This document shows, piece after piece, positions 2,917 to 40,328 of a stretch of 64,000 nucleotides of DNA. The stretch is taken from contig NZ_QAAA01000011.1 of assembly GCF_003046545.1 (NCBI RefSeq), forward strand, positions 1-64,000, written 5' to 3'. A program made the translations under genes and the position numbers. This stretch comes from Rhodovulum imhoffii (lineage in GTDB: Bacteria; Pseudomonadota; Alphaproteobacteria; Rhodobacterales; Rhodobacteraceae). Under the pieces are notes generated by a model. That model ran no database searches. It had not been told where the DNA came from and was given only the letters and a program-made list of their open reading frames with translations. How positions within the stretch are numbered: the stretch's first letter is position 1; each line of letters starts with the position of its first letter.

Positions 2917-4800
2917 TCAGGTCTCCTTTGTCAGGGTCCGGTAGATGTCCGGCAGCGCCCTGGTCAGGCGTTCCGGGTTGGGCAGAAGGGTAAAGCCGCT
3001 CCGGCCGAAGATACGAACGAACCAGTCCTGCCCATCTTCGTCGATCACGATACCATGAAGACTTTGTCCGGTGTTGCGTGCTTCTCTTACAGCCATATGG
3101 CTGTCTTCGATGCCGTGCCGCCCTTCGTAATGGTCCAGGTCGTTGGGTTTGCCATCTGTCAGGACGAAAAGTATTTTCCGTGTGCAGGGTTCGTGCGCCA
3201 GCTGCGCGCTGACATGGCGGATCGCCGCCCCCAGGCGGGTATAATGGCAGGGTTGCAACGCACCTATGTTGGCAATGATGTCCTGGCCCATGGGGTCTTT
3301 GAAGTCCTTGCAGCGGGTCAGGAATACCCGGTCCCGGCGCAAGGAGGAAAAGCCCCATATCGCGAGGCGGTCGCCCGCCGCATCGATGCCACCGGCCAGG
3401 GCCGCCATGGCCTCCCGGGCAACCCCGATCACACTGGTGTCGCCGATGGCGGCCTCGGTCGACCGGGAAGTGTCGATGAGGAAGGCCACCGAAAGATCGC
3501 GCTCCATCTGGCGGGCGGATTGCCAGATACGGTCGCTGCCCCGCCCGGTTGCAACCAGGTCGGCACGGCTGGTCAGAAGGGCGTCCAGGTCGATCTCGGG
3601 CCCGTCCATCTGGCGCGGTTGCAGAACCCGGCGGGGGTGAAGCGCCTCGAACTGGCGGCGTACCTCGCGTAGTCGGCGGGCGTTTGGTGTGAAAGCCGTG
3701 TCGCCGGGCCGGGCCGGCGCGTCGAGCACGCGGCAATGGTCGGGCATGTAGCTGCGGCTGCGGTGGTTCCACTCTGGGTAGGTGTATTTTCCGGCCAGGC
3801 TTTCATGATCGGCGTCGGCAGGCGACAGATCGAGATGCAGGCGGAGCCGGGTCGAGGCCTTGCGGTCCTGTCTGGACAACACGATTTCGTCCTGATCTTC
3901 TGCTGCCTTTTGCGCGTTTTCGTCATCGTCGTCGTCGACGCTGCGATTGATGTTCATCGATTCGACCCAGGAGAGGATGGATTCGAACCGATGAATGATG
4001 AAGCTGTCCTTGCGGTTTTGCTGGTCCTGATCCTTGCGCTGCCCCGGCTTGCGGCTGGTGTTTGCAGCATTCGGAGGGGGGGCCGCAGGTTCGGCCTGCT
4101 CGTCCTTCGGCCCGGTCCCGGAACCGGGGTGCGAAAAGCGCAACCAGATCGGGACGGGCGCCGTCGGCATGTAGCCGCGTGGGGCAGGGCCGACCGGGAT
4201 TTCCGCAGCATGGCCGCGAAGATGCGCACGGATAGCGGTTTCCAGCGCGGCCTCCTGTGCCGGGCGCATTGTTTCCGGACGCGCAGTCAGGCAAAGCCGC
4301 GCCATCTGTGCATAGGCCTGCCGCAAACCCGGGCAGGCCGCATGGACCGCATCCGCGGCGGATGCGTTGGCCAGAATTTGTGCGTGGTCTTGTTCGGGGC
4401 CGGTTCCGGCCAGGTCGATCGAAGACAGGTCGGACTTCGCCGCCAGGGCGGTCAGCCAGAAATACGCCGCGCGGTTCAATGCGGGGTCGGAGAAGCTGGC
4501 GAAAAAGGGGGGCAACGCAAGGCGCTCGCCATCGAAGCGCGCAACCCATTCGCGATCCCGGTCCGCTCCTATCTTGCGCCGCACCGGGCGACGGTGGCGA
4601 ACCAGGGTCGGCCCGGTCTCGCCGAGCTCCACACCCGGCGCGCCGCCAAGCGAACGGAACAGCACCGTGAGGCTGGGGCGCACTGCGGCAAGTGGAATCC
4701 CGGCCTCGGGGTAGGTGACGCCCGACCCGATTCCACTGGCGATATCGTGCCAGAGGTTGCCAACGGTTTCTTCGGGTTCCATCAGATCGCGCAGGCGCAT
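2917..4800 (-). CDS. norD: NorD, von Willebrand A domain protein for nitric oxide reductase activation
   Basis: A 627-residue cytoplasmic protein. The C-terminal third is a VWA domain with a metal-ion-dependent adhesion site: the DTSRS loop, the conserved Thr in 'HYTRLGAAIRH' and the Asp in 'LTDGKPND'. The N-terminal two thirds are helical and contain an acidic low-complexity stretch around 'SVDDDDDENAQKAAEDQDE'. NorD works with the MoxR-type ATPase NorQ to mature NorBC, probably by iron insertion at FeB. It starts five bases after the norQ stop and is followed after one base by the 59-residue ORF. Confidence 0.95.
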   Translation of the reverse strand: MRLRDLMEPEETVGNLWHDIASGIGSGVTYPEAGIPLAAVRPSLTVLFRSLGGAPGVELGETGPTLVRHRRPVRRKIGADRDREWVARFDGERLALPPFFASFSDPALNRAAYFWLTALAAKSDLSSIDLAGTGPEQDHAQILANASAADAVHAACPGLRQAYAQMARLCLTARPETMRPAQEAALETAIRAHLRGHAAEIPVGPAPRGYMPTAPVPIWLRFSHPGSGTGPKDEQAEPAAPPPNAANTSRKPGQRKDQDQQNRKDSFIIHRFESILSWVESMNINRSVDDDDDENAQKAAEDQDEIVLSRQDRKASTRLRLHLDLSPADADHESLAGKYTYPEWNHRSRSYMPDHCRVLDAPARPGDTAFTPNARRLREVRRQFEALHPRRVLQPRQMDGPEIDLDALLTSRADLVATGRGSDRIWQSARQMERDLSVAFLIDTSRSTEAAIGDTSVIGVAREAMAALAGGIDAAGDRLAIWGFSSLRRDRVFLTRCKDFKDPMGQDIIANIGALQPCHYTRLGAAIRHVSAQLAHEPCTRKILFVLTDGKPNDLDHYEGRHGIEDSHMAVREARNTGQSLHGIVIDEDGQDWFVRIFGRSGFTLLPNPERLTRALPDIYRTLTKET

Positions 4801-4805
4801 CGGAT

Positions 4806-5600
4806 CTATCCGTAGACTGTGGCGATCAGGTCGCGCAGGGCCTGCTGAACATCGGGCTCATCGCTGAGAGGTTCGATAACCGCCGCTTCCAGCGCCCGGT
4901 CCACGCTCATGCCGCCTGCCATGAGCGTGGCGGCATAGATCAGAAGCCGGGTTGAGACCCCTTCTTCCAGATCCATTCCCGACAGCCGCCGGATGTGACC
5001 GGCCAGACGTATCAGCGGGGCGACCCGCGCCGGTTCAAGGCGGCTTTCGCGCGCGACCACGGCGATCTCCGTTCCGGAGTCGGGAAAATCGAACGAAATC
5101 GATACGAAGCGTTGCCGTGTGGACGGTTTCAACCGTTTCAGCACGTTCTGGTAGCCGGGATTGTAGGACGCCACCAACATGAAGCCCTCTGGGGCCACCA
5201 GTTCTTCGCCCGTCCGGTCGATCATCAGTGTGCGCCGCGTGTCGGTAAGCGGATGCAGCACAACGGTCACGTCTCTGCGGGCCTCCACCACCTCGTCGAG
5301 ATAGCAGATGCCGCCTTCGCGCACCGCGCGGGTCAGGGGGCCATCGACCCAGACGGTCTCCCCGCCCTTGAGCAGATAGCGCCCGATGAGATCCGCCGCC
5401 GACAGGTCGTCATGGCAGGCCACAGTGAAAAGCGGTTTGTTCAGCCGTGCTGCCATATGTTCGACAAAGCGTGTCTTGCCGCAGCCGGTCGGCCCCTTCA
5501 GAAGAAGGGGCAGACCGTTTTCATGGGCCGTCTCGAAGAGATCGCATTCGCAGCCGGTCGGTTGGTAGAACGGCAGGACGGGTTTACAGGCCATGTTCAT
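4806..5600 (-). CDS. norQ: NorQ, MoxR-type AAA+ ATPase for nitric oxide reductase assembly
   Basis: A 264-residue MoxR-family AAA+ ATPase. The Walker A motif is 'GPTGCGKT' (about residues 36-43), Walker B is 'ICYLDEVVEA', and sensor-type residues follow in 'ASYNPGYQN'. It is the usual length for NorQ/NirQ. These ATPases partner the VWA protein NorD to insert the non-heme iron of NorB. The start has GGGAG upstream and lies three bases after the norB stop, so it is cotranscribed. Confidence 0.95.
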   Translation of the reverse strand: MNMACKPVLPFYQPTGCECDLFETAHENGLPLLLKGPTGCGKTRFVEHMAARLNKPLFTVACHDDLSAADLIGRYLLKGGETVWVDGPLTRAVREGGICYLDEVVEARRDVTVVLHPLTDTRRTLMIDRTGEELVAPEGFMLVASYNPGYQNVLKRLKPSTRQRFVSISFDFPDSGTEIAVVARESRLEPARVAPLIRLAGHIRRLSGMDLEEGVSTRLLIYAATLMAGGMSVDRALEAAVIEPLSDEPDVQQALRDLIATVYG

Positions 5601-5603
5601 TTC

Positions 5604-6953
5604 TTATTCTCCCGGAACGGGGTTGGCCGATCCGGGAGGGATGACCTCGGTTTTGCGCACAACCAGCATCGAGTAGATGAACAGAAGCGCGCCGATCACC
5701 ACAGCCGTTCCGGCGCCGAAGCGCATAAGGAAAAAGACGGAAAGGCTTTCCTGGACGTTCATGTAGTAGTCTCCGATGACCCGCTGCATGTGCGTCTGGA
5801 TCGTGCCGGCAAAGGTCAGTACGAAAGTCATGAACGCCATGCCGCCGGTCATCAGCCAGAAGCTGGCCATGTTGAGGACCTGGTTGTAGGGTGCGCGTTC
5901 GCGCAGCATCGGCATCGCATAGCTGAACACCGCGAGGTTCAGGGCGACATAAGCCCCATAGAAGGCAAGATGCCCGTGGGCGGCGGTGATTTGCGTGCCG
6001 TGGCTGTAGAAATTCACCCCGTGCAGCGTGTGCAAAAAGCCCCAGACACCCGCGCCGAAGAACGCGACAGTACTGGACCCCAGCGACCAGAGCAGGGCCG
6101 CCTTGTTCGGGTGATTTTTCCGTCCCTTCCAGACCATGACGAAGGCAAAGCTCATCATCAGGAAGAAGGGAACCACCTCGAAGGTCGAGAAAATGGAGCC
6201 GACCCACTGCCAGTACCCCGGAAGACCGATCCAGTAGAAGTGGTGCCCGGTGCCCAGGATGCCGGAGAACAGGGCCGTGGCGACGATGACATAGAGCCAT
6301 TTTTCGACGATTTCGCGGTCGACACCTGTCAGCTTGAGCAGAAGGAAGGCCAGGATCGCCGCCATCACAAGCTCCCAGGTAGCCTCGACCCAGAGATGTA
6401 CCACGAACCACCAGTACATCTTGTCCAATGACAGGTTGTCGGGGTTGATGAAGGCAAAGATCCACAGCAACGACAACAGCCAAAGGCCCATCAGAAGCAC
6501 GTTGGTGATTGCGGTCTTCTTGCCCGCCAGAACCGTCATCGAGACATTGAGAAGGAAGATGAGCGCGGCAACCAGGATGCCGAATTTGACCCACAGCGGT
6601 TGTTCGAGAAACTCGCGCCCGCCATGAATCCCGGCAAGATAGGAGCCGACCGCGCCAAGCGTTCCCACCAGAAGGATGACAAGCTGGATGTAAGCCAGCT
6701 TCGTGGACCAGATTTCACGTTCCGATTCCTCTGGGATCAGGAAATAGGCGGCTCCGAAAAAGCCCAGAAGCAGCCAGACGATCAGGGCATTCGTATGGAT
6801 CATCCGGATGACATTGAAGGGCAGGATTTCCGCCAGAAAGTTTGGAGAAACGTAAATCCAGCCGGCCAGCAGCCCGCCCAGCACCTGAATTCCGAAAAGC
6901 GCCATGGCGGCCAGGAAATAGTAAAGCGCCACTTTCTGAGATTGGTATTTCAT
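5604..6953 (-). CDS. norB: NorB, catalytic subunit of cytochrome c-dependent nitric oxide reductase
   Basis: A 449-residue heme-copper-oxidase-type membrane protein with twelve predicted helices. The expected ligands are present: His53 and His328 for heme b, His326 for heme b3, and His186, His237 and His238 for FeB, with Glu190 in the 'HLWVEATWE' helix. It reduces two NO to N2O using electrons from NorC. The length fits the short cNOR type (no quinol-oxidising N-terminal extension). A strong AAGGAGG site precedes the ATG, and norC ends 12 bases upstream. Confidence 0.97.
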   Translation of the reverse strand: MKYQSQKVALYYFLAAMALFGIQVLGGLLAGWIYVSPNFLAEILPFNVIRMIHTNALIVWLLLGFFGAAYFLIPEESEREIWSTKLAYIQLVILLVGTLGAVGSYLAGIHGGREFLEQPLWVKFGILVAALIFLLNVSMTVLAGKKTAITNVLLMGLWLLSLLWIFAFINPDNLSLDKMYWWFVVHLWVEATWELVMAAILAFLLLKLTGVDREIVEKWLYVIVATALFSGILGTGHHFYWIGLPGYWQWVGSIFSTFEVVPFFLMMSFAFVMVWKGRKNHPNKAALLWSLGSSTVAFFGAGVWGFLHTLHGVNFYSHGTQITAAHGHLAFYGAYVALNLAVFSYAMPMLRERAPYNQVLNMASFWLMTGGMAFMTFVLTFAGTIQTHMQRVIGDYYMNVQESLSVFFLMRFGAGTAVVIGALLFIYSMLVVRKTEVIPPGSANPVPGE

Positions 6954-6965
6954 TTTCTAGCCTCC

Positions 6966-7418
6966 TTAGCCGGCGTCATTGGGTGGCCAGCCTTGTGTGT
7001 CGGTCTGGTCGGCCCAACGCAGAAATTCCGCGAGACCGCGGATGTCTTCTTCGGCCAGGTCGTAACGTGGCATCTGGCGGCGGCCTTCGACCCCGCTGGG
7101 CTGGCTTTCGATCCAGCCCTTGAGGAACTCGAACGCATCCTCCGGGCTGTCCTGCACGCCCCAACGGGTCATCACATTGCCAAGCTCGGGTGCGAAATAG
7201 GCGCCCTCGCCGTGCAGGCTGTGGCAGTTGATGCAGGAATGTTTTTCCCACACGTGCTTGCCGTGGACGACATCTTCGCTGAGTGCCATTCCGGCCGTTG
7301 ATGTCTGCACCACGTATCGGTGCGAGTGGACGGTCATTCCCACGAAGATCACGACAAAGAAGATCGAGCCTCCGTAGAAGATATTACGCGCCCGCGATTT
7401 CGTGAGAATTTCAGCCAT
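6966..7418 (-). CDS. norC: NorC, membrane-bound cytochrome c subunit of nitric oxide reductase
   Basis: A 150-residue protein with one N-terminal membrane anchor (about residues 12-30) and a periplasmic cytochrome c domain. The heme motif is Cys62-Ile-Asn-Cys65-His66 and the probable axial ligand is Met116 in 'RRQMPRY'. It passes electrons from pseudoazurin or cytochrome c to NorB. It is the first gene of the nor operon. A TTG-N8-CAA box lies upstream, and the hexamer TAGAAA at 7448-7453 (minus strand) is placed at class II activator spacing from it. Confidence 0.96.
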   Translation of the reverse strand: MAEILTKSRARNIFYGGSIFFVVIFVGMTVHSHRYVVQTSTAGMALSEDVVHGKHVWEKHSCINCHSLHGEGAYFAPELGNVMTRWGVQDSPEDAFEFLKGWIESQPSGVEGRRQMPRYDLAEEDIRGLAEFLRWADQTDTQGWPPNDAG

Positions 7419-7447
7419 GATCGGGCCCCTTCAATTCAGGATGGTTT

Positions 7448-7453
7448 TTTCTA
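7448..7453 (-). promoter_or_regulatory. putative -10 element of the norC promoter
   Basis: TAGAAA on the minus strand. Its centre is about 32 bases from the centre of the TTG-N8-CAA box at 7476-7489, the distance expected when a Crp/Fnr-type activator sits at about -41.5. On the other side TAGGGT at 7511-7516 stands at nearly the same distance and could serve the DUF1858 gene. No start-site data. Confidence 0.45.
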
Positions 7454-7475
7454 GCCGCACATTCGGAACCGAAGT

Positions 7476-7489
7476 TTGTGCCAGAGCAA
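7476..7489. promoter_or_regulatory. NnrR/FNR-type operator between norC and the DUF1858 gene
   Basis: TTGTGCCAGAGCAA fits the TTG-N8-CAA half-site layout of Crp/Fnr regulators. The identical 14-mer occurs at 8553-8566, and the match extends to 19 bases (GAAGTTTGTGCCAGAGCAA). It lies in the divergent region of norC and the DUF1858 gene, so one site may activate both. The likely binder is the Crp/Fnr protein encoded at 7743-8492. Confidence 0.75.
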
Positions 7490-7538
7490 CGTTTGGCACG
7501 ATTGTGCGTTTAGGGTGGCCGGAGAGAAGGAGGTTTCG

Positions 7539-7751
7539 ATGGGTCACGTTCGTCTGGACGATCCCGATTTGCCGTTGGCTGATCTTATGGCCGAGTGGCC
7601 ACAGACGATCCCGGTCTTCATGCAGCGCAAGTTGCTGTGTGTCGGCTGTCCTGTCAGCCCGTTTCACACGATAAGCGACGTTTGTGCCGCATATTGTCTG
7701 GATGAAGAGATGTTCATGACAGAACTGATGCAGGCCGCCGGATTAGTCTGA
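7539..7751 (+). CDS. DUF1858 domain protein in the NO regulon
   Basis: A 70-residue protein made almost entirely of one DUF1858 domain: 'LADLMAEWPQTIPVFMQRKLLCVGCPVSPFHTISDVC' carries the family CxxC-like pair 'CVGC'. The domain is also found fused to hybrid-cluster and ScdA/RIC-type proteins, where it is thought to handle reactive nitrogen or Fe-S chemistry; the function of stand-alone copies is unknown. The ATG at 7539 follows an excellent AGAAGGAGG site. It is divergent from norC and convergent with the regulator gene, overlapping it by nine bases at the 3' ends. Confidence 0.85.
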   Translation: MGHVRLDDPDLPLADLMAEWPQTIPVFMQRKLLCVGCPVSPFHTISDVCAAYCLDEEMFMTELMQAAGLV

Positions 7752-8492
7752 GCGGGTCTGGGTTTGACCGAGAACCACCAGCGCATGCGGGTCGCATACC
7801 GTGATACGCTTGCGCTTGCTTTTGATCAGCCCCTGTTTTTCCCAACCGCTCAGCAGCCGGCTGACCGTGTACAAGGTGGTGGCCGTCAATTCCGACAAGT
7901 TTTGCCGGGTGATCGGAAAATCGATTTCAATCCCGTTTTCAACCTTGCGCCCGGTCTGGGTCATCAACCGCAGCAGCGCATTTGCGACACGCTGCTCGAC
8001 CTGTTGCGTGGCGATTTCGACGACGCGATTGTGCACTTCCCCAAGCCTGTTCCCCAGCGTTTTGTAGGCCTCGGGCGCAAAGCCGTCATACTCACGCACA
8101 AAAACATCCCACAGGTGCATCGGCCAGCTGAGCACGATCGATTCAGTCGCACACATCGCCGTGGCGGGATAATTGCTGAGCCCGATCGCCTTTGCAATTC
8201 CCAGAAGCTGTCCGGAAGGGATATGAAGTGCGGTGATTTGCTCTCCCGTATAGGTGATGCGAATGACCCGTACATAGCCATCCAGCAGCATGTAAAAGCG
8301 TTCGGCCGGATGCCCTTCCTCAAAGATCGCGGTGCCCGCGTCATACCGCCTTGACGTAGACTGGTCGATGATCGTGCGAATTTGCCGCCGGTCCAGTCGC
8401 GAAAACGGGGGCAGATCGCTCAGCAGGCTTGTATCGAGGTGCGGCAGGGTTTTGCGCATGGAAATATGTTTCATGGCAAACTCATGCCACAT
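7743..8492 (-). CDS. nnrR: Crp/Fnr-family regulator, probably the NO-responsive NnrR
   Basis: A cyclic-nucleotide-binding-like beta barrel ('FEEGHPAERFYMLLDGYVRVI'), a dimerisation helix and a C-terminal winged helix with 'ITRQNLSELTATTLYTVSRLLSGWEKQGLI'. It has no N-terminal cysteine cluster, so it is an NnrR/DNR-type NO sensor rather than FNR. The start is uncertain: in-frame candidates are 8540, 8492, 8474 and 8459. I use 8492 (249 aa), because a -10-like TATCTT at 8522-8527 would put transcription start downstream of 8540. The operator at 8553-8566 may allow autoregulation. It sits between its presumed targets nor and nir. Confidence 0.88.
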   Translation of the reverse strand: MWHEFAMKHISMRKTLPHLDTSLLSDLPPFSRLDRRQIRTIIDQSTSRRYDAGTAIFEEGHPAERFYMLLDGYVRVIRITYTGEQITALHIPSGQLLGIAKAIGLSNYPATAMCATESIVLSWPMHLWDVFVREYDGFAPEAYKTLGNRLGEVHNRVVEIATQQVEQRVANALLRLMTQTGRKVENGIEIDFPITRQNLSELTATTLYTVSRLLSGWEKQGLIKSKRKRITVCDPHALVVLGQTQTRSD

Positions 8493-8552
8493 TTTCTCAT
8501 TTTGCGCCAAGCCCGGTTTTGAAGATATCCAGGTCGCCAATCGTCCAGAAGT

Positions 8553-8566
8553 TTGTGCCAGAGCAA
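8553..8566. promoter_or_regulatory. NnrR/FNR-type operator upstream of pseudoazurin-nirK-nirV
   Basis: A second exact copy of TTGTGCCAGAGCAA. It stands between nnrR and the pseudoazurin gene. TAATCT at 8588-8593 lies at class II distance downstream and is a good -10 candidate for pseudoazurin-nirK-nirV. On the other side TATCTT (8522-8527, minus strand) could serve nnrR. Confidence 0.75.
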
Positions 8567-8630
8567 ATTTTTATTCCCGAGATCAGGTAATCTCAGGGCA
8601 AACAAAATCCGGTCTGAAAGGGAAATAAAG

Positions 8631-9065
8631 ATGATCCGAACACCGGCAATCGGTCTGGCACTTTTTGTCCTGATGGGGGGCGCGGCTTTTGCCGAGACTT
8701 TCGAGGTCAGGATGCTCAACAAGAGCGAGGAGGATGGCGAGCGGATGGTCTTTGAGCCTGCCTTCGTCCGGGCTTCCGCGGGCGACACGATCAGGTTTCT
8801 CGCCACTGACAAGGGGCATAATGCGGAAGTGAACAAGGGCATGCTGCCCCAGGGGGCGGAGGCTTTTTCCGGCAGGATCGGCGAGGATTTCGAAGTTACA
8901 CTTGATGTCGAAGGGGTCTATGGCGTGATCTGCAAGCCGCACTACGCGATGGGCATGGTGATGACCATCGCTGTGGGCGATGTCGACATCCCGGCCGACT
9001 TCCTGGAAGGGCGCGTGCCCCCGAAAGCCATGGAGCGCTTCACGGCGCAGCTTGAAAATCTCTGA
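8631..9065 (+). CDS. paz: pseudoazurin, periplasmic blue copper electron donor
   Basis: A 144-residue precursor with a signal peptide of about 21 residues (cut near FA-ET). The mature cupredoxin has the four type 1 copper ligands: His63 ('DKGHNAE'), Cys101, His104 and Met109 ('CKPHYAMGM'). Pseudoazurin donates electrons to the copper nitrite reductase and can serve NorC. The start ATG has AAGGGAA upstream. It is 56 bases before nirK in the same direction, so the two probably share the NnrR-controlled promoter. Confidence 0.93.
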
Positions 9066-9121
9066 ACCATTTCGGTGCGCAGGCGTGTTTCTGCGGCCTT
9101 AACCACCTCATGGAGGGACCC

Positions 9122-10342
9122 ATGACCAAACTTATCAACCCCGGGCTCGTCAGAACCAGCCGTCGCAACGTTCTGCGCGGTTCCGTTCTTGCCGGCGCTG
9201 CCGCAATGGCGGGCGCAGGCGGAATGGCGGCGACGCCGCGCGCGTCGCACCTGCACGCAATCAATGCGGGGTCGGCCAGGCTTTACAAGACCGCAGGGCA
9301 AGCGGCTGCCGACACCAACGCACAGCCCGTCGACCTGTCCGGCTACACCCGTGTGAAACAGGATCTGGTCGCCCCTCCCTTTGCTCCGGCACATGAACAG
9401 GTTGCAACAGGCGGCCCGAAGATTGTCGAAATAACGCTGGAGACCACCGAAAAACTAATGGTCGTGGATGAGGACACCGGTGCGTCTATCTGGGCGCTGA
9501 CCTATAACGGTTCGGTTCCCGGGCCGCTGATCATTTGCCACGAAGGCGACATGGTCGAACTGACCCTGCGCAACCCGATCGACAGCAAGATGGAGCACAA
9601 CATCGACTTCCATGCCTCGACCGGGGCTCTGGGGGGCGGTGGCCTGACCCATGTCTATCCCGGAGAGGAAACCGTGCTGCGCTGGAAAGCGACCAAGGCG
9701 GGCTGTTTCACCTATCACTGTGCTCCGGGCGGCGCGATGATTCCGTATCATGTCACCCACGGAATGAACGGTGCCGTCATGGTGCTGCCGCGCGACGGTC
9801 TGAAAGACAAGGATGGCAACCCGCTGCGCTACGACCGGATCGCCTATATCGGTGAGCAGGATTACTATCTGCCGATGGACGAAAACGGAGATTACCGCAC
9901 CTATGATGCTGCGGGGGACGATTATGCCGACAGTATCGAGGCGATGCGCGGCCTGATACCGACGCATTCGGTTTTCAACGGGGCAGTCGGCGCGCTGACC
10001 GGGGAAAATGCGCTCAAGGCGAAGGTCGGTGAAACCGTTTTGATGATCCACAATCAGGCGAACCGGGATTCCCGACCCCACCTGATCGGCGGTCATGGAA
10101 ACTATGTCTGGGAAACCTCGTTCACCGATGCCCCCTCGCGCGACATGGAAACCTGGTTCGTGCGCGGCGGCAGTGCGGTTGCCGCGATGTATACCTTTGA
10201 ACAGCCGGGCGTTTACGCTTATGTCAACCACAACCTGATCGAAGGTGTCCTGTTGGGCGCGACGGCCCATTTCGTCGTGGAAGGCACATGGAACAATACG
10301 CTGATGGAACAGGTTGTCGCGCCGCGGTCCTTCAAGACCTGA
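9122..10342 (+). CDS. nirK: NirK, copper-containing nitrite reductase
   Basis: A 406-residue precursor with a twin-arginine signal (SRRNVLRG, then a hydrophobic Ala/Gly stretch). It has two cupredoxin domains. Type 1 copper: His159, Cys200, His210, Met215. Type 2 copper: His164, His199, His320. The catalytic Asp162 and His282 are present, so the enzyme should be active: nitrite to NO in the periplasm. GGAGGG precedes the ATG. It lies between pseudoazurin and nirV and is the source of the NO handled by NorCB and sensed by the regulator. Confidence 0.97.
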
Positions 10343-33834: not shown

Positions 33835-34340
33835 ACATGGCTGAAGACTCTCAGAAACCGGGGGGGCGCCGTTGGGGGCGGCTCGTGCTGTCTCTCAGTC
33901 TGGCTCTGAACCTGCTGGTGGCGGGGTTGGTGGTGGGGGCGGTGCTCAGTCACGCCAACGGAGTGCGCCACGCGGTGCCGGGGGCGCACAGCCGGATTTC
34001 GGATTATGGCCCCTACACGCGTGCGCTGTCCGACACGGACCGCCGTGAATTGCGGGCGCGTATGCGCACTCAATCCGACCGGCTGCGAGACAACCGGCAG
34101 GCGGTGCGTGAGGGTTTTACCCGGCTTCTGTCCGCCCTGCGCAGTGAGACGCTCGACCCCGAGCAGGTGAAACAGATCCTCGAAGAACAGCATGCGCGGG
34201 TCGACGACCAGGGGCGCTTTATCCGGGGGCTTCTGGTTCAGCAGATCGCCGAGATGACCCCCGGTGAGCGCGCCGCTTTCGCAGACCGGCTTGAGCGCAT
34301 GATGCATCGGTATCGCCGGGGTCCGGTCCGCTCAGATTGA
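33831..34340 (+). CDS. periplasmic heavy-metal-sensor-like / Spy-CpxP-type protein
   Basis: A 169-residue protein with a membrane anchor (about 16-40) and a helical periplasmic domain rich in Arg, Gln and Glu ('LSDTDRRELRARMRTQSDRL', 'LDPEQVKQILEEQHARVDDQGRFIRGLLVQQIAEMTPGERAAFADRLERM'). This fits the metal-sensor CnrR/ZraP/CpxP group with LTxxQ-like repeats. It may relay an envelope signal to the sigma factor. Its 3' end overlaps the convergent pleD gene by nine bases. Confidence 0.8.
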   Translation: MNMAEDSQKPGGRRWGRLVLSLSLALNLLVAGLVVGAVLSHANGVRHAVPGAHSRISDYGPYTRALSDTDRRELRARMRTQSDRLRDNRQAVREGFTRLLSALRSETLDPEQVKQILEEQHARVDDQGRFIRGLLVQQIAEMTPGERAAFADRLERMMHRYRRGPVRSD

Positions 34341-35753
34341 CCGGTTCAGGCGTATTTCGTCCGGTTTGTGCAGAGCGACGCGGTTGCGCCCTTCCGCTTT
34401 TGCCCGATAAAGCGCGGTATCCGCACGGTCAAGCAGGGTCTGGACGCCAGCCTCTGCGTTTGGGCCGTAGCGCCAGGATTTGCAAGGATGTCCGATCGCC
34501 ACGCCAATGCTGACGGTCACTTCGGCCTGGCCCTTGCCGCGGGGAAGATCGAAGGCGGAGGCCTGAATTGCCCGGCGCAGGCGCTCAGCCGTGGCGACAG
34601 CGATGTCCGGTTCGGTTTCCGGGAGGGCGATCAGAAATTCCTCCCCCCCCATCCGCGCGATAAGGTCCGTCGGACGCAGGTTGTCCCGGACGCGCTGCGC
34701 GAAGCTTTCCAGAACCCTGTCCCCGGCTGTATGGCCGTGCCGGTCGTTGATGCCTTTGAAATGGTCTATATCCAGAACCATGACCGCAAAGCTTCGTCCG
34801 CTGCCTGCGGCGCGCTGGGCAAAGCTGGCCAGGTGGGGCAACGCGTAGCGGCGGTTGAACAACCCTGTCAGAGGGTCCGTGACGGCCATGCGCAATCCGT
34901 CGCGCACCGAGTTGCGCAGACGATCCGCCTGCCGTTTGCGGGTCAATTGCCCCCGGAGGCGCAACGCCATCTCGCGCGCGTCAAAGGGGACGGTTACCAG
35001 ATCGTTCGCGCCAAGGTCCAGTGCCATCGCCGCGGTCTCCCGCGCGCCTTCGGGAACCGCGAGGATCACCGCCCCGTGGCGCGTTTCGGTTTGGGAGCGC
35101 AGTTCGCTCATCAGGCGCAGGCCTGCGCCGGGGCGGTCCAGGTCGGCGCTGATAAGGTAGATGTCCGGCACCCTGCCGGGCGGCGGGCTGAGCACTTCGG
35201 CGCGGGTCTTGACGCTGATCCGGTCCGGAACCAGCAGGTGGAGGGCCGCCTTCCAGGCCATCGCTTCCTGGGTGGAACTGCCGATCAGGGCGATCGATCC
35301 CGGCCGGGTGAACCCTGAAGGGGGGTCTGCAAAACCGAGGGCCCGGCAGGTGCCGTTCCGCAAGGCCAGTTCGCGCGCGGTTTCGCGGGCCCGCAGCAAG
35401 TTGCGCACGCGCGCCAGGAGGATCAGGTCGTCATGGGGTTTGGAAAGGAAATCGTCCGCGCCGGCCTCCAGGGCGCTGCGGCGTGCTTCCGTCTCCTGCG
35501 CGGCAGTTACGATGATGATGGGCATGTCAGCCGTTTCAGGTGTCGCGCGCAGCCGGCGGCATACCTCGGTTCCGTCAAGATCCGGCATGCGCATGTCGAT
35601 CAGGGCAAGATCGGGGGCGACAGTGCGAGCCAGATGCAGGGCCTCTTGCCCACAGGTTGCGGGTATCACATCGTAATGCGCTGAAGAAAGACTGACAGTC
35701 ATGGTAATACGGTTGATTGCCACGTCATCCGCGACAAGAATACGCCCGGGCAT
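34332..35753 (-). CDS. pleD: PleD-type response regulator, diguanylate cyclase
   Basis: A 473-residue protein with two receiver domains (about 1-125 and 150-270) and a GGDEF domain. REC1 has the acceptor Asp53 ('LIDMRMPD') and Lys105; REC2 lacks a clear acidic pocket and is probably an adaptor. The active site GGEEF is at 369-373, with the inhibitory RxxD site at 360-363. It should make c-di-GMP on phosphorylation, with product inhibition. No kinase gene is adjacent. A divergent DUF3572 gene follows after 107 AT-rich bases. Confidence 0.9.
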   Translation of the reverse strand: MPGRILVADDVAINRITMTVSLSSAHYDVIPATCGQEALHLARTVAPDLALIDMRMPDLDGTEVCRRLRATPETADMPIIIVTAAQETEARRSALEAGADDFLSKPHDDLILLARVRNLLRARETARELALRNGTCRALGFADPPSGFTRPGSIALIGSSTQEAMAWKAALHLLVPDRISVKTRAEVLSPPPGRVPDIYLISADLDRPGAGLRLMSELRSQTETRHGAVILAVPEGARETAAMALDLGANDLVTVPFDAREMALRLRGQLTRKRQADRLRNSVRDGLRMAVTDPLTGLFNRRYALPHLASFAQRAAGSGRSFAVMVLDIDHFKGINDRHGHTAGDRVLESFAQRVRDNLRPTDLIARMGGEEFLIALPETEPDIAVATAERLRRAIQASAFDLPRGKGQAEVTVSIGVAIGHPCKSWRYGPNAEAGVQTLLDRADTALYRAKAEGRNRVALHKPDEIRLNRSI

Positions 35754-38757: not shown

Positions 38758-39339
38758 ATGTACGGTCTGATAAACCGCGCTTTTCAGTTCTTCGTGCGGG
38801 ATTCTTATGGAGAGCGGGCCTGGCTGGCAGTCTCGGGGTGTGCGGGGGTCGACCCGGCCGGATTCGAGGCGCTTGAACTTTACGAGGACGACGTGACAGA
38901 GCGGATGGTTACCGCTTTGTCGGGGGTTTTGCGGCTTCCGCCTTCGATGCTGCTGGAAGATTTCGGGACATACCTTGTTTCCCACCCCCGCCATGAATCC
39001 TTGCGGCGGTTGCTGCGTTTCGGGGGCAGCAGTTTCCTCGAATTCCTGTACTCGCTGGACGATATGCCAAGCCGGGTACGCCTGGTCCTGCCGGAGTTTT
39101 CGATCCCGGAACTGAAGCTTTGCCGTGAGGGGGGGGAACGTTTCGCCCTTTATTGCGACTGGCCGGGAGACCTGATGCGTCCCACGGTGGTTGGACTGTT
39201 GCGTGGGATGGCGGACGATTACGGGGCGTTGGTCTTGATGGATTTTCCCGAAAGCGGGGCGGGTCCGATCATGATCGAACTTCTGGATGGGCGTTTTGCC
39301 GACGGGCGCAGCTTTGCGCTGGGGGCGCGGCCGACATGA
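38758..39339 (+). CDS. H-NOX-like (HNOB) protein lacking the heme ligand
   Basis: A 193-residue protein that aligns along its length with bacterial H-NOX: N-terminal 'MYGLINRAFQFFVRDSYGERAWLAV', central 'FLEFLYSLDDMPSRVRLVLPEF'. In heme-binding H-NOX the proximal His stands in LDxxHxRV; here Pro104 is at that position. The YxSxR heme-propionate motif is replaced by Tyr132-Cys-Asp134-Trp-Pro136. It therefore probably does not bind heme in the known way. Its stop overlaps the start of an HNOBA-GGDEF protein, the usual H-NOX partner, so it likely still regulates that enzyme through another signal. Confidence 0.85.
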   Translation: MYGLINRAFQFFVRDSYGERAWLAVSGCAGVDPAGFEALELYEDDVTERMVTALSGVLRLPPSMLLEDFGTYLVSHPRHESLRRLLRFGGSSFLEFLYSLDDMPSRVRLVLPEFSIPELKLCREGGERFALYCDWPGDLMRPTVVGLLRGMADDYGALVLMDFPESGAGPIMIELLDGRFADGRSFALGARPT

Positions 39340-40328
39340 AGGGGCAAGTGCCGTGTTTTGCGCATGTAAGCATGCCGGTCCGGGCGCTGAACTCGCTGAT
39401 GCCGATGCATTTGTGGTTTTCCCCCTTGGGGGAAGTTCTGACCGCGGGACCGACCCTGGCGAAACTGGCGGGGAAGGCGGCGTTTTCCGGGATGCCGTTT
39501 CAGGAAGTGCTGGAGGTTCACCGCCCATTCCCGGTTTCCGACATGGCCGGGCTGACGACACTGGAGGGCGAGAGGCTGGGTCTGCGCCTGTATGCGCTGC
39601 CGGAGCATAACCTGAAAGGGAGTGTTGTCGTACTGCCCGACGGCGGCGCGTTTCTAAACCTGTCGCTGGGGTTGTCGGTGATCGAAGTGGTCGGGCGGTA
39701 TCGCCTGACTCTGCGGGATTTCGCCCCTTCGGAACTGGCCGTGGAGATGCTTTATCTTGTCGAAGCGAAAACGGCGGTTCTGGAGGAATACAAGCGCCTT
39801 AATACGCGTCTGAAGCGCGCCCGAGAGCAGGCGGAGGAACGTGCCGCCACGGACATGTTGACGGGGCTACGCAATCGTCGTGCCTTGCAGACTGCGCTTA
39901 ACGCTGCGGTGAACGGCGCGCAGCCTTTCGGACTCATGCATGTCGATCTGGATTACTTCAAACAGGTCAACGACAGGCTGGGGCACGCGGCGGGCGATGA
40001 GGTGCTTCAGGTGGTGGCACGCATCCTGCTGGATGAAACTCGCCGCAGCGACACTGTCGCCCGCGCGGGGGGGGATGAGTTCATCATTCTGTTCCTGGGG
40101 CTTGTCGATGCCCGTCAGCTGCTGCGCATCGGGCGGCGGATCATCGCCCAGCTTGAAGAACCAATCCCGTTTGGCGAAGACACCTGCCGGGTTTCCGCCA
40201 GTATCGGAATGACATTGTCCACCTTTTACACTCACCCGGATCCACGGCAGATGCTCAAGGACGCGGATGACGCGCTTTATGAGGCCAAGCGGGCAGGGCG
40301 GGGGCAGGTGCGGGTTGTACGGATTTAG
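39336..40328 (+). CDS. HNOBA-GGDEF diguanylate cyclase, partner of the H-NOX-like protein
   Basis: A 330-residue cytoplasmic protein. Residues about 10-140 match the heme-NO-binding-associated (HNOBA) PAS-like domain ('LMPMHLWFSPLGEVLTAGPTLAKL', then 'GVVVLPDGGAFLNLS'-like strands). A coiled coil (about 135-170) leads into a GGDEF domain with an intact active site GGDEF at 245-249 and an inhibitory RxxD site at 236-239. It should synthesise c-di-GMP under control of the coupled H-NOX-like protein (ATGA overlap). No EAL domain. Its TTAG end is shared with the convergent thioesterase gene. Confidence 0.9.
   Translation: MKGQVPCFAHVSMPVRALNSLMPMHLWFSPLGEVLTAGPTLAKLAGKAAFSGMPFQEVLEVHRPFPVSDMAGLTTLEGERLGLRLYALPEHNLKGSVVVLPDGGAFLNLSLGLSVIEVVGRYRLTLRDFAPSELAVEMLYLVEAKTAVLEEYKRLNTRLKRAREQAEERAATDMLTGLRNRRALQTALNAAVNGAQPFGLMHVDLDYFKQVNDRLGHAAGDEVLQVVARILLDETRRSDTVARAGGDEFIILFLGLVDARQLLRIGRRIIAQLEEPIPFGEDTCRVSASIGMTLSTFYTHPDPRQMLKDADDALYEAKRAGRGQVRVVRI

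Follow-up and report, generated by a model that had tools for sequence, protein, structure and literature searches.

A Group 5 H-NOX-fold protein with proline at the site of the proximal heme histidine, paired with a GGDEF diguanylate cyclase in Rhodovulum imhoffii

Introduction

What does a protein of the H-NOX fold do for its neighbouring cyclase once the histidine that ligates heme has been replaced? The question is raised by two overlapping genes of Rhodovulum imhoffii within the window analysed here (the whole stretch of 64,000 nucleotides from contig NZ_QAAA01000011.1, read on the forward strand). A preliminary description of this DNA had taken the first gene product for an H-NOX-like protein without heme ligand, coupled to a cyclase in a genome that makes and reduces NO.

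In an ordinary H-NOX, NO displaces the proximal histidine; this residue and helix F rotate outward together, with a shift of the subdomains (PMC7108781). Proteins without this histidine have been described. A sequence network seeded with the P. denitrificans H-NOX yielded a fifth, very large group in which fewer than 10% of members have the proximal histidine, most carry proline and no cysteine is conserved (Lee-Lopez & Yukl 2022; PMC8738867); the trigger of this Group 5 was left unknown by the pattern of no histidine and no cysteine (PMC8738867). The proximal histidine was earlier reported missing in the H-NOX of both P. denitrificans and R. sphaeroides (Kumar & Spiro 2017; PMC5588039). In P. 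denitrificans, hnoX overlaps a GGDEF gene, an hnoX mutant forms less biofilm and a dgcAB mutant more, and the effects of NO persist without hnoX, while in the authors' own model NO also acts through H-NOX (PMC5588039). The P. denitrificans papers attribute H-NOX phenotypes to NO sensing; c-di-GMP was undetectable in this species for a later group. The D. shibae H-NOX has been reported to bind NO and then to inhibit Dgc1 (PMC7232146), and it is tabulated, with a direct assay, as a heme NO sensor inhibiting Dgc1 (PMC8846402).

Results and Discussion

Fold and ligand sites of the window H-NOX

Coordinates of the features are collected in Table 1. Analysis of the first protein revealed a match to the HNOB profile (PF07700) over residues 2-156, with 77.4 bits and E 1.5e-21 (cut-off 25.5), and the best match among solved structures by sequence was the Nostoc H-NOX Alr2278 (E 3.3e-21). 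The AlphaFold model, built on an alignment of 22 sequences (the window H-NOX and 21 relatives), had a mean pLDDT of 86.5, and Foldseek placed Nostoc H-NOX structures first among its matches (3tf8, E 2.9e-12, TM 0.75). Structure prediction, which the preliminary description had proposed as a check, thus agrees with its assignment of the protein to H-NOX, and profile and model together indicate that the fold is kept.

In the Alr2278 alignment the proximal heme ligand His105 faces Pro104 of the window H-NOX, as had been described. The tyrosine, serine and arginine of the YxSxR motif face Cys133, Trp135 and Gly137; the motif is absent, as claimed, while the register of Tyr132-Pro136 given for its replacement was one residue early. 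Neither the proximal histidine nor the YxSxR motif of heme-based NO-sensing H-NOX is therefore found in this protein, and both the ligand and the propionate motif are, as judged by alignment, lost. Loss of the histidine alone is no proof of loss of heme, since a structure of the S. oneidensis H-NOX variant H103G, known here by its title among the Foldseek matches, is deposited as the Fe(II)CO state.

Table 1. Positions of the gene pair, its diagnostic sites and other genes in the window
Feature	Position	Strand	Basis
H-NOX-fold protein without proximal heme His, Group 5 type, 193 aa	38758..39339	+	ORF, profile, PDB alignment, fold
Pro104 codon CCA, site of proximal heme His	39067..39069	+	alignment
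C133-D-W135-P-G137, replacing YxSxR	39154..39168	+	alignment
HNOBA-GGDEF diguanylate cyclase, 330 aa, ATG at 39336	39336..40328	+	ORF, profile
Weak HNOBA match, cyclase residues 12-65	39369..39530	+	26.4 bits, cut-off 23.4
I-site RRSD (RxxD), cyclase residues 236-239	40041..40052	+	sequence
GGDEF signature, cyclase residues 245-249	40068..40082	+	sequence
PleD-like REC-GGDEF gene, 3 kb 5' of the pair	34332-35753		
nirK	9110-10342		
norB-type gene (COX1 family), beside NorQ- and VWA-type genes	5604-6953	minus	

The partner cyclase and its linkage to H-NOX

The start codon of the cyclase lies within the stop of the H-NOX gene, giving a 4-bp overlap (ATGA). Its GGDEF domain scored 144.9 bits in Pfam and, as previously noted, both the GGDEF signature and the I-site are intact; by these motifs the protein keeps the catalytic and inhibitory sites of an active GGDEF diguanylate cyclase. 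Across the partner cyclases of the clade, GGDEF was intact in 156/156 and RxxD was present in 153/156.

The preliminary description had asked whether homologues with proline at the ligand position adjoin HNOBA-GGDEF genes, and the homologues bore this out. In 213 of 214 loci (76/76, 80/80 and 57/58 in three sets that share some genomes) H-NOX has an HNOBA-GGDEF gene as its same-strand neighbour, and the sole miss (L203) is a stretch that stops at a contig end. In ten of the 76 loci, the cyclase reading frame taken from its longest start extends back over the H-NOX gene. These counts indicate tight linkage of the two genes across the clade, and the gene pair of the window is real and ordinary for its family.

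Distribution of the clade and residue patterns

An HNOB gene was found in 221 of 295 genomes of the family, taken one per genus, and the matches fell into two score classes. From the lower-scoring class 118 loci were read, of which 116 were intact clade members; the group is by these counts large. The other two, both from the first 60 read, a canonical H-NOX (L034) and a copy with an in-frame stop (L036), were excluded from the counts. The latter (G271:C24) is a clade HNOB copy with an in-frame TAA and is probably broken in that genome. Addition of the window protein and two more from the family scan to the 116 gave 119 one-per-genus members, which are the better-scoring part of the family-scan matches.

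Among these 119 best-scoring members, residue 104 was proline in 85 and histidine in 13; the remaining 21 were spread over ten further residue types. The share of histidine may be high, since better-scoring matches should favour it. Tyrosine at 133 occurred in one member and arginine at 137 in 10, and the two never occurred together in the 119. Cysteine exceeded 15% only at positions 11, 14, 55 and 133, of which the window H-NOX has Cys133 alone; position 133 is the best cysteine column, with 66/119, and cysteine at 28 and at 122 was each found in less than 15% of the best-scoring members. Histidine was present at position 2 in 110/119 and at position 76 in 88/119 of them; the window H-NOX has Tyr2 and keeps His76. 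In the residues compared across the 12 canonical rows, neither histidine appeared. Residues strongly conserved in the clade include W22, LEDxGTYLVSH, RRLLRFGG, ADDYGAL and P117.

Comparison with canonical proteins revealed a separation. In the first tree, made before the later 58 loci were added and with rows at least 97% identical dropped, the clade separates from the 12 canonical rows, which are those reachable by the clade profile, with a starred branch support of 97. In the second tree, with rows at least 80% identical dropped, it separates from four His-bearing outgroup rows with a starred 99. All 12 canonical rows have histidine, tyrosine and arginine at the proximal and motif sites. The 16 further high-scoring loci had histidine (15) or glutamine (1) at the proximal site and tyrosine, serine and arginine of the motif in every case; the canonical-type H-NOX with glutamine is one of L005, L011-L016, L018, L020-L024, L026, L027 and L029.

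The 80 named loci nearest the window protein, which partly repeat genomes of the one-per-genus set, showed 66 proline, 5 histidine and 9 other residues at position 104. Of the 289 genomes in a class-level sample, nine gave a match: three in the clade (the window genome and two others of its family), one canonical within the family and five outside it. Since all five matches outside the family have the histidine and YxSxR, the clade seems, by its residues, to be confined to the family within this sample.

Membership in Group 5

Does the window pair represent a new kind of H-NOX module? The P. denitrificans H-NOX has proline at position 104 and falls inside the clade in the tree (sequence from the plasmid collection), and the window H-NOX matches it by tblastn with E 1e-27 and 39% identity over residues 1-161. 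The features of Group 5 are all seen in the window pair and its relatives. Proline stands in place of histidine (Pro104, and 85 of the 119 best-scoring members); tblastn and tree place the protein with the P. denitrificans H-NOX; a GGDEF gene adjoins, as in P. denitrificans, in the window and in 213/214 loci; and no cysteine is conserved, with partial conservation at C133 (66 of the 119 best-scoring members). The window pair is thus a further Group 5 member of Rhodobacteraceae and represents no new kind, the group with proline in place of histidine having been described (PMC8738867).

The nearest described system is therefore HnoX/DgcA of P. denitrificans (Pden_3719/Pden_3720), which shares proline at the histidine site, lack of a conserved cysteine set and the overlapping GGDEF gene. 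The window H-NOX differs from HnoX in having W135 and Y2, and the source of NO differs as well, NirS as published for P. denitrificans against nirK in the window genome.

Those plasmid records in which the gene is annotated (two of the six matches) name it heme NO-binding. A pair on a plasmid of Phaeobacter sp. G2 (L190) is annotated as heme NO-binding protein despite Pro104.

Genome and neighbourhood

Profile searches of the R. imhoffii genome (59 contigs, 2.9 Mb) found one HNOB gene; no second was found across the 59 contigs. The genome has three GGDEF domains and two EAL domains; one such pair shares a reading frame. All 16 sampled genomes of the window's genus carry the H-NOX gene. The closest named relative of the window H-NOX is that of Rhodovulum robiginosum (59% identity), which agrees at each of the 193 aligned columns with one from the window's genus (L108, L093).

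The window itself contains nirK and a norB-type gene; the tie of the pair to NO metabolism made in the preliminary description is weak. A cNorB-like gene (E 1e-20 or better) was found in 21 of 76 pair-bearing genomes, on which ground a denitrification link of the pair was set aside, and in none of 15 other genomes of the window's genus. No association was found between a cNorB-like gene and His104 (4/8 versus 17/53 one-per-genus genomes, p 0.43). Positions 2917-10342 of the window form a denitrification block of nirK with norB-, norQ- and norD-like genes.

The genes 5' of the pair in the 58 loci with longer flanks were of PleD/HAD/DUF4153 type, of trimethylamine methyltransferase (MTTB) type, both or neither. 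There was no visible separation by upstream gene type of the 6 His104 loci from the other 52. In 28 of the 58 loci (L032-L091) a same-strand MTTB-type gene lies about 0.7 kb upstream of H-NOX, and 29 have one somewhere in the locus; MTTB figures among the neighbours in a figure legend of PMC8738867. The gene order around the PleD-like gene is partly common to many relatives.

Selection and history of residue 104

Comparison of close relatives gave a median dN/dS (NG86) of 0.11, ranging from 0.02 to 0.36 and finite in 30 of 36 non-overlapping pairs of 72-97% identity; dS exceeds 1 in many of these pairs, and the window protein, having no relative near enough, is in none. Ratios this low show that purifying selection acts between these close relatives and that the H-NOX genes are maintained.

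The history of residue 104 is less simple. A single irreversible loss of His104 was disfavoured, a reversible two-state model being better by 8.8 lnL on the fixed tree; under the reversible model the clade root is histidine with 0.81 on this poorly resolved tree. Starred branches of the second tree force just two changes at the residue. On so poorly resolved a tree, a regained histidine, several separate losses, transfer and errors in the tree itself fit alike, and any of them may account for the changes. Tryptophan or histidine at position 135 accompanies His104 (10/13 versus 14/106, p 3.6e-6 with kinship ignored); with two supported independent pairs in the tree, the link may reflect kinship. 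Two of the four proline codons lie one base from a histidine codon; CCA, the codon in the window, does not.

Comparison with D. shibae and with other H-NOX proteins

The H-NOX (L079) of the D. shibae H-NOX/Dgc1 system (Dshi_2815; genome G035, taken as D. shibae from an exact plasmid match) lies in the same clade and is 41% identical to the window H-NOX, and its Dgc1 partner is 47% identical to the window cyclase. It keeps His104 and Arg137 without the motif tyrosine, whereas the window H-NOX has neither His104 nor Arg137. Since D. shibae belongs to the His104 minority, its reported heme sensing is no proof of heme in Pro104 members. The contrast between the His104 of D. shibae and Pro104 members was not found stated in the literature searched, outside which most subscription papers lie. 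A copper P-type ATPase gene on a D. shibae plasmid (L188:7599-9944, pDSHI01) recurs with 99-100% DNA identity in another five genera of the family sample; the genome taken as D. shibae has two copies, and the gene reflects recent transfer.

The closest solved relatives, Nostoc Alr2278 and the H-NOX of sGC beta1, share the fold and, unlike the window H-NOX, bind heme with His105 and YxSxR. The pseudo-H-NOX of sGC alpha is a heme-less H-NOX domain retained in a cyclase (PMC8196705) and may by analogy serve as a precedent. What bars heme from that pocket is an N-terminal extension and not the missing residues (PMC8196705), whereas the window H-NOX begins at the conserved MYGL without such an extension; the sGC alpha domain is part of a guanylate cyclase subunit, and its similarity to the clade is marginal (E 0.0066). 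The V. cholerae H-NOX is an example of heme-independent signalling by this fold in vitro, in a group with a conserved proximal histidine, a Cys/zinc site and a histidine kinase partner (PMC7108781). The V. cholerae-type set of three conserved cysteines with His/Gln was not found here.

Proposed mode of action and alternatives

We hold it most likely, with modest confidence, that in the Group 5 module the H-NOX restrains the adjacent cyclase without His-ligated heme, possibly as a protein fixed in the His-released form. The H-NOX would bind the cyclase at its N-terminal part, where the HNOBA match lies, and would restrain it in the absence of such heme. Since NO activates an ordinary H-NOX by displacing the proximal histidine, a protein without the histidine may be locked in the His-released, cyclase-inhibiting state, a locking carried over from other H-NOX. 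In that case the module would respond not to NO but to the amount of the protein or to a signal other than a gas. The genetics of P. denitrificans fit this reading, as its Pro104 H-NOX favours biofilm, which c-di-GMP appears to repress.

The emptied pocket could instead bind another small molecule (a metabolite, another tetrapyrrole or a lipid) that controls the cyclase. The clade has its own strongly conserved residues (47 of 193 H-NOX columns, each with at least 90% conservation over 216 rows), and proline is much favoured among the non-histidine residues at 104 (85/106 in the best-scoring members). The conserved residues may, however, serve the partner interface, and there is no candidate ligand; we consider this reading unlikely. 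It is more improbable that heme is still bound through another ligand, or none, and that NO is sensed as in an ordinary H-NOX. Such a heme mode is possible within the clade, as 13 of the 119 best-scoring members keep His104, and the D. shibae protein, tabulated as a heme NO sensor, also lacks the motif tyrosine; the window H-NOX further has Trp135, as do 7 of 12 His104 rows of one alignment. Against this, D. shibae keeps the two residues that the window protein has lost, no other histidine is invariant, and NO effects in P. denitrificans outlast the loss of hnoX (PMC5588039). His2 was rejected as an alternative heme ligand, being clade-wide yet tyrosine in the window.

The preliminary description had also suggested redox sensing by Cys28, Cys122 and Cys133. 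All three are present in the window H-NOX, Cys133 occupies the motif-tyrosine site in 66 of the 119 best-scoring members, and disulfides activate the heme-free V. cholerae H-NOX in vitro (PMC7108781). As a conserved mechanism the suggestion did not survive: a three-cysteine switch fits poorly because Cys28 and Cys122 are not conserved and even the best cysteine column reaches only 66/119, and Group 5 has no conserved cysteine according to PMC8738867. A thiol redox switch is accordingly very improbable, and if present it may be private to the window species. Least credible of all is that the gene is a decaying, functionless remnant in this genome. The window H-NOX branch is long in the first tree (1.08 against 0.19 for its sister), the protein deviates at 4 of the 47 conserved sites (2, 103, 110 and 114; rank 15 of 216), three of these deviations surround the lost-histidine site, and in one other genome the HNOB stretch is interrupted by an in-frame stop. 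The open frame and intact overlap speak against decay, as do the low dN/dS of relatives and a cyclase that deviates at 2 of 82 conserved sites, near the median of 1.5 (rank 78 of 156).

Conclusions

To what is in print on this group, the present analysis adds the residue counts in the 119 best-scoring members, the linkage in 213/214 loci, the median dN/dS of 0.11 among relatives, the cNorB-like count of 21/76 and the His104 of D. shibae. Should Pro104 members be unable to hold heme through a histidine, the heme NO-binding annotation and the NO-sensing models of P. denitrificans need revision. The His104 of D. shibae against the Pro104 majority offers a handle on how H-NOX controls its cyclase, testable within one clade. 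More tentatively, and with doubt, an NO-gated cyclase regulator may have turned NO-blind across Rhodobacteraceae, either held in its 'NO-on' shape or given to another ligand, while a minority of D. shibae type keeps or has regained the gas mode. If this is true, residue 104 would serve as a natural switch that sets c-di-GMP signalling to a gas-controlled or a gas-independent mode.
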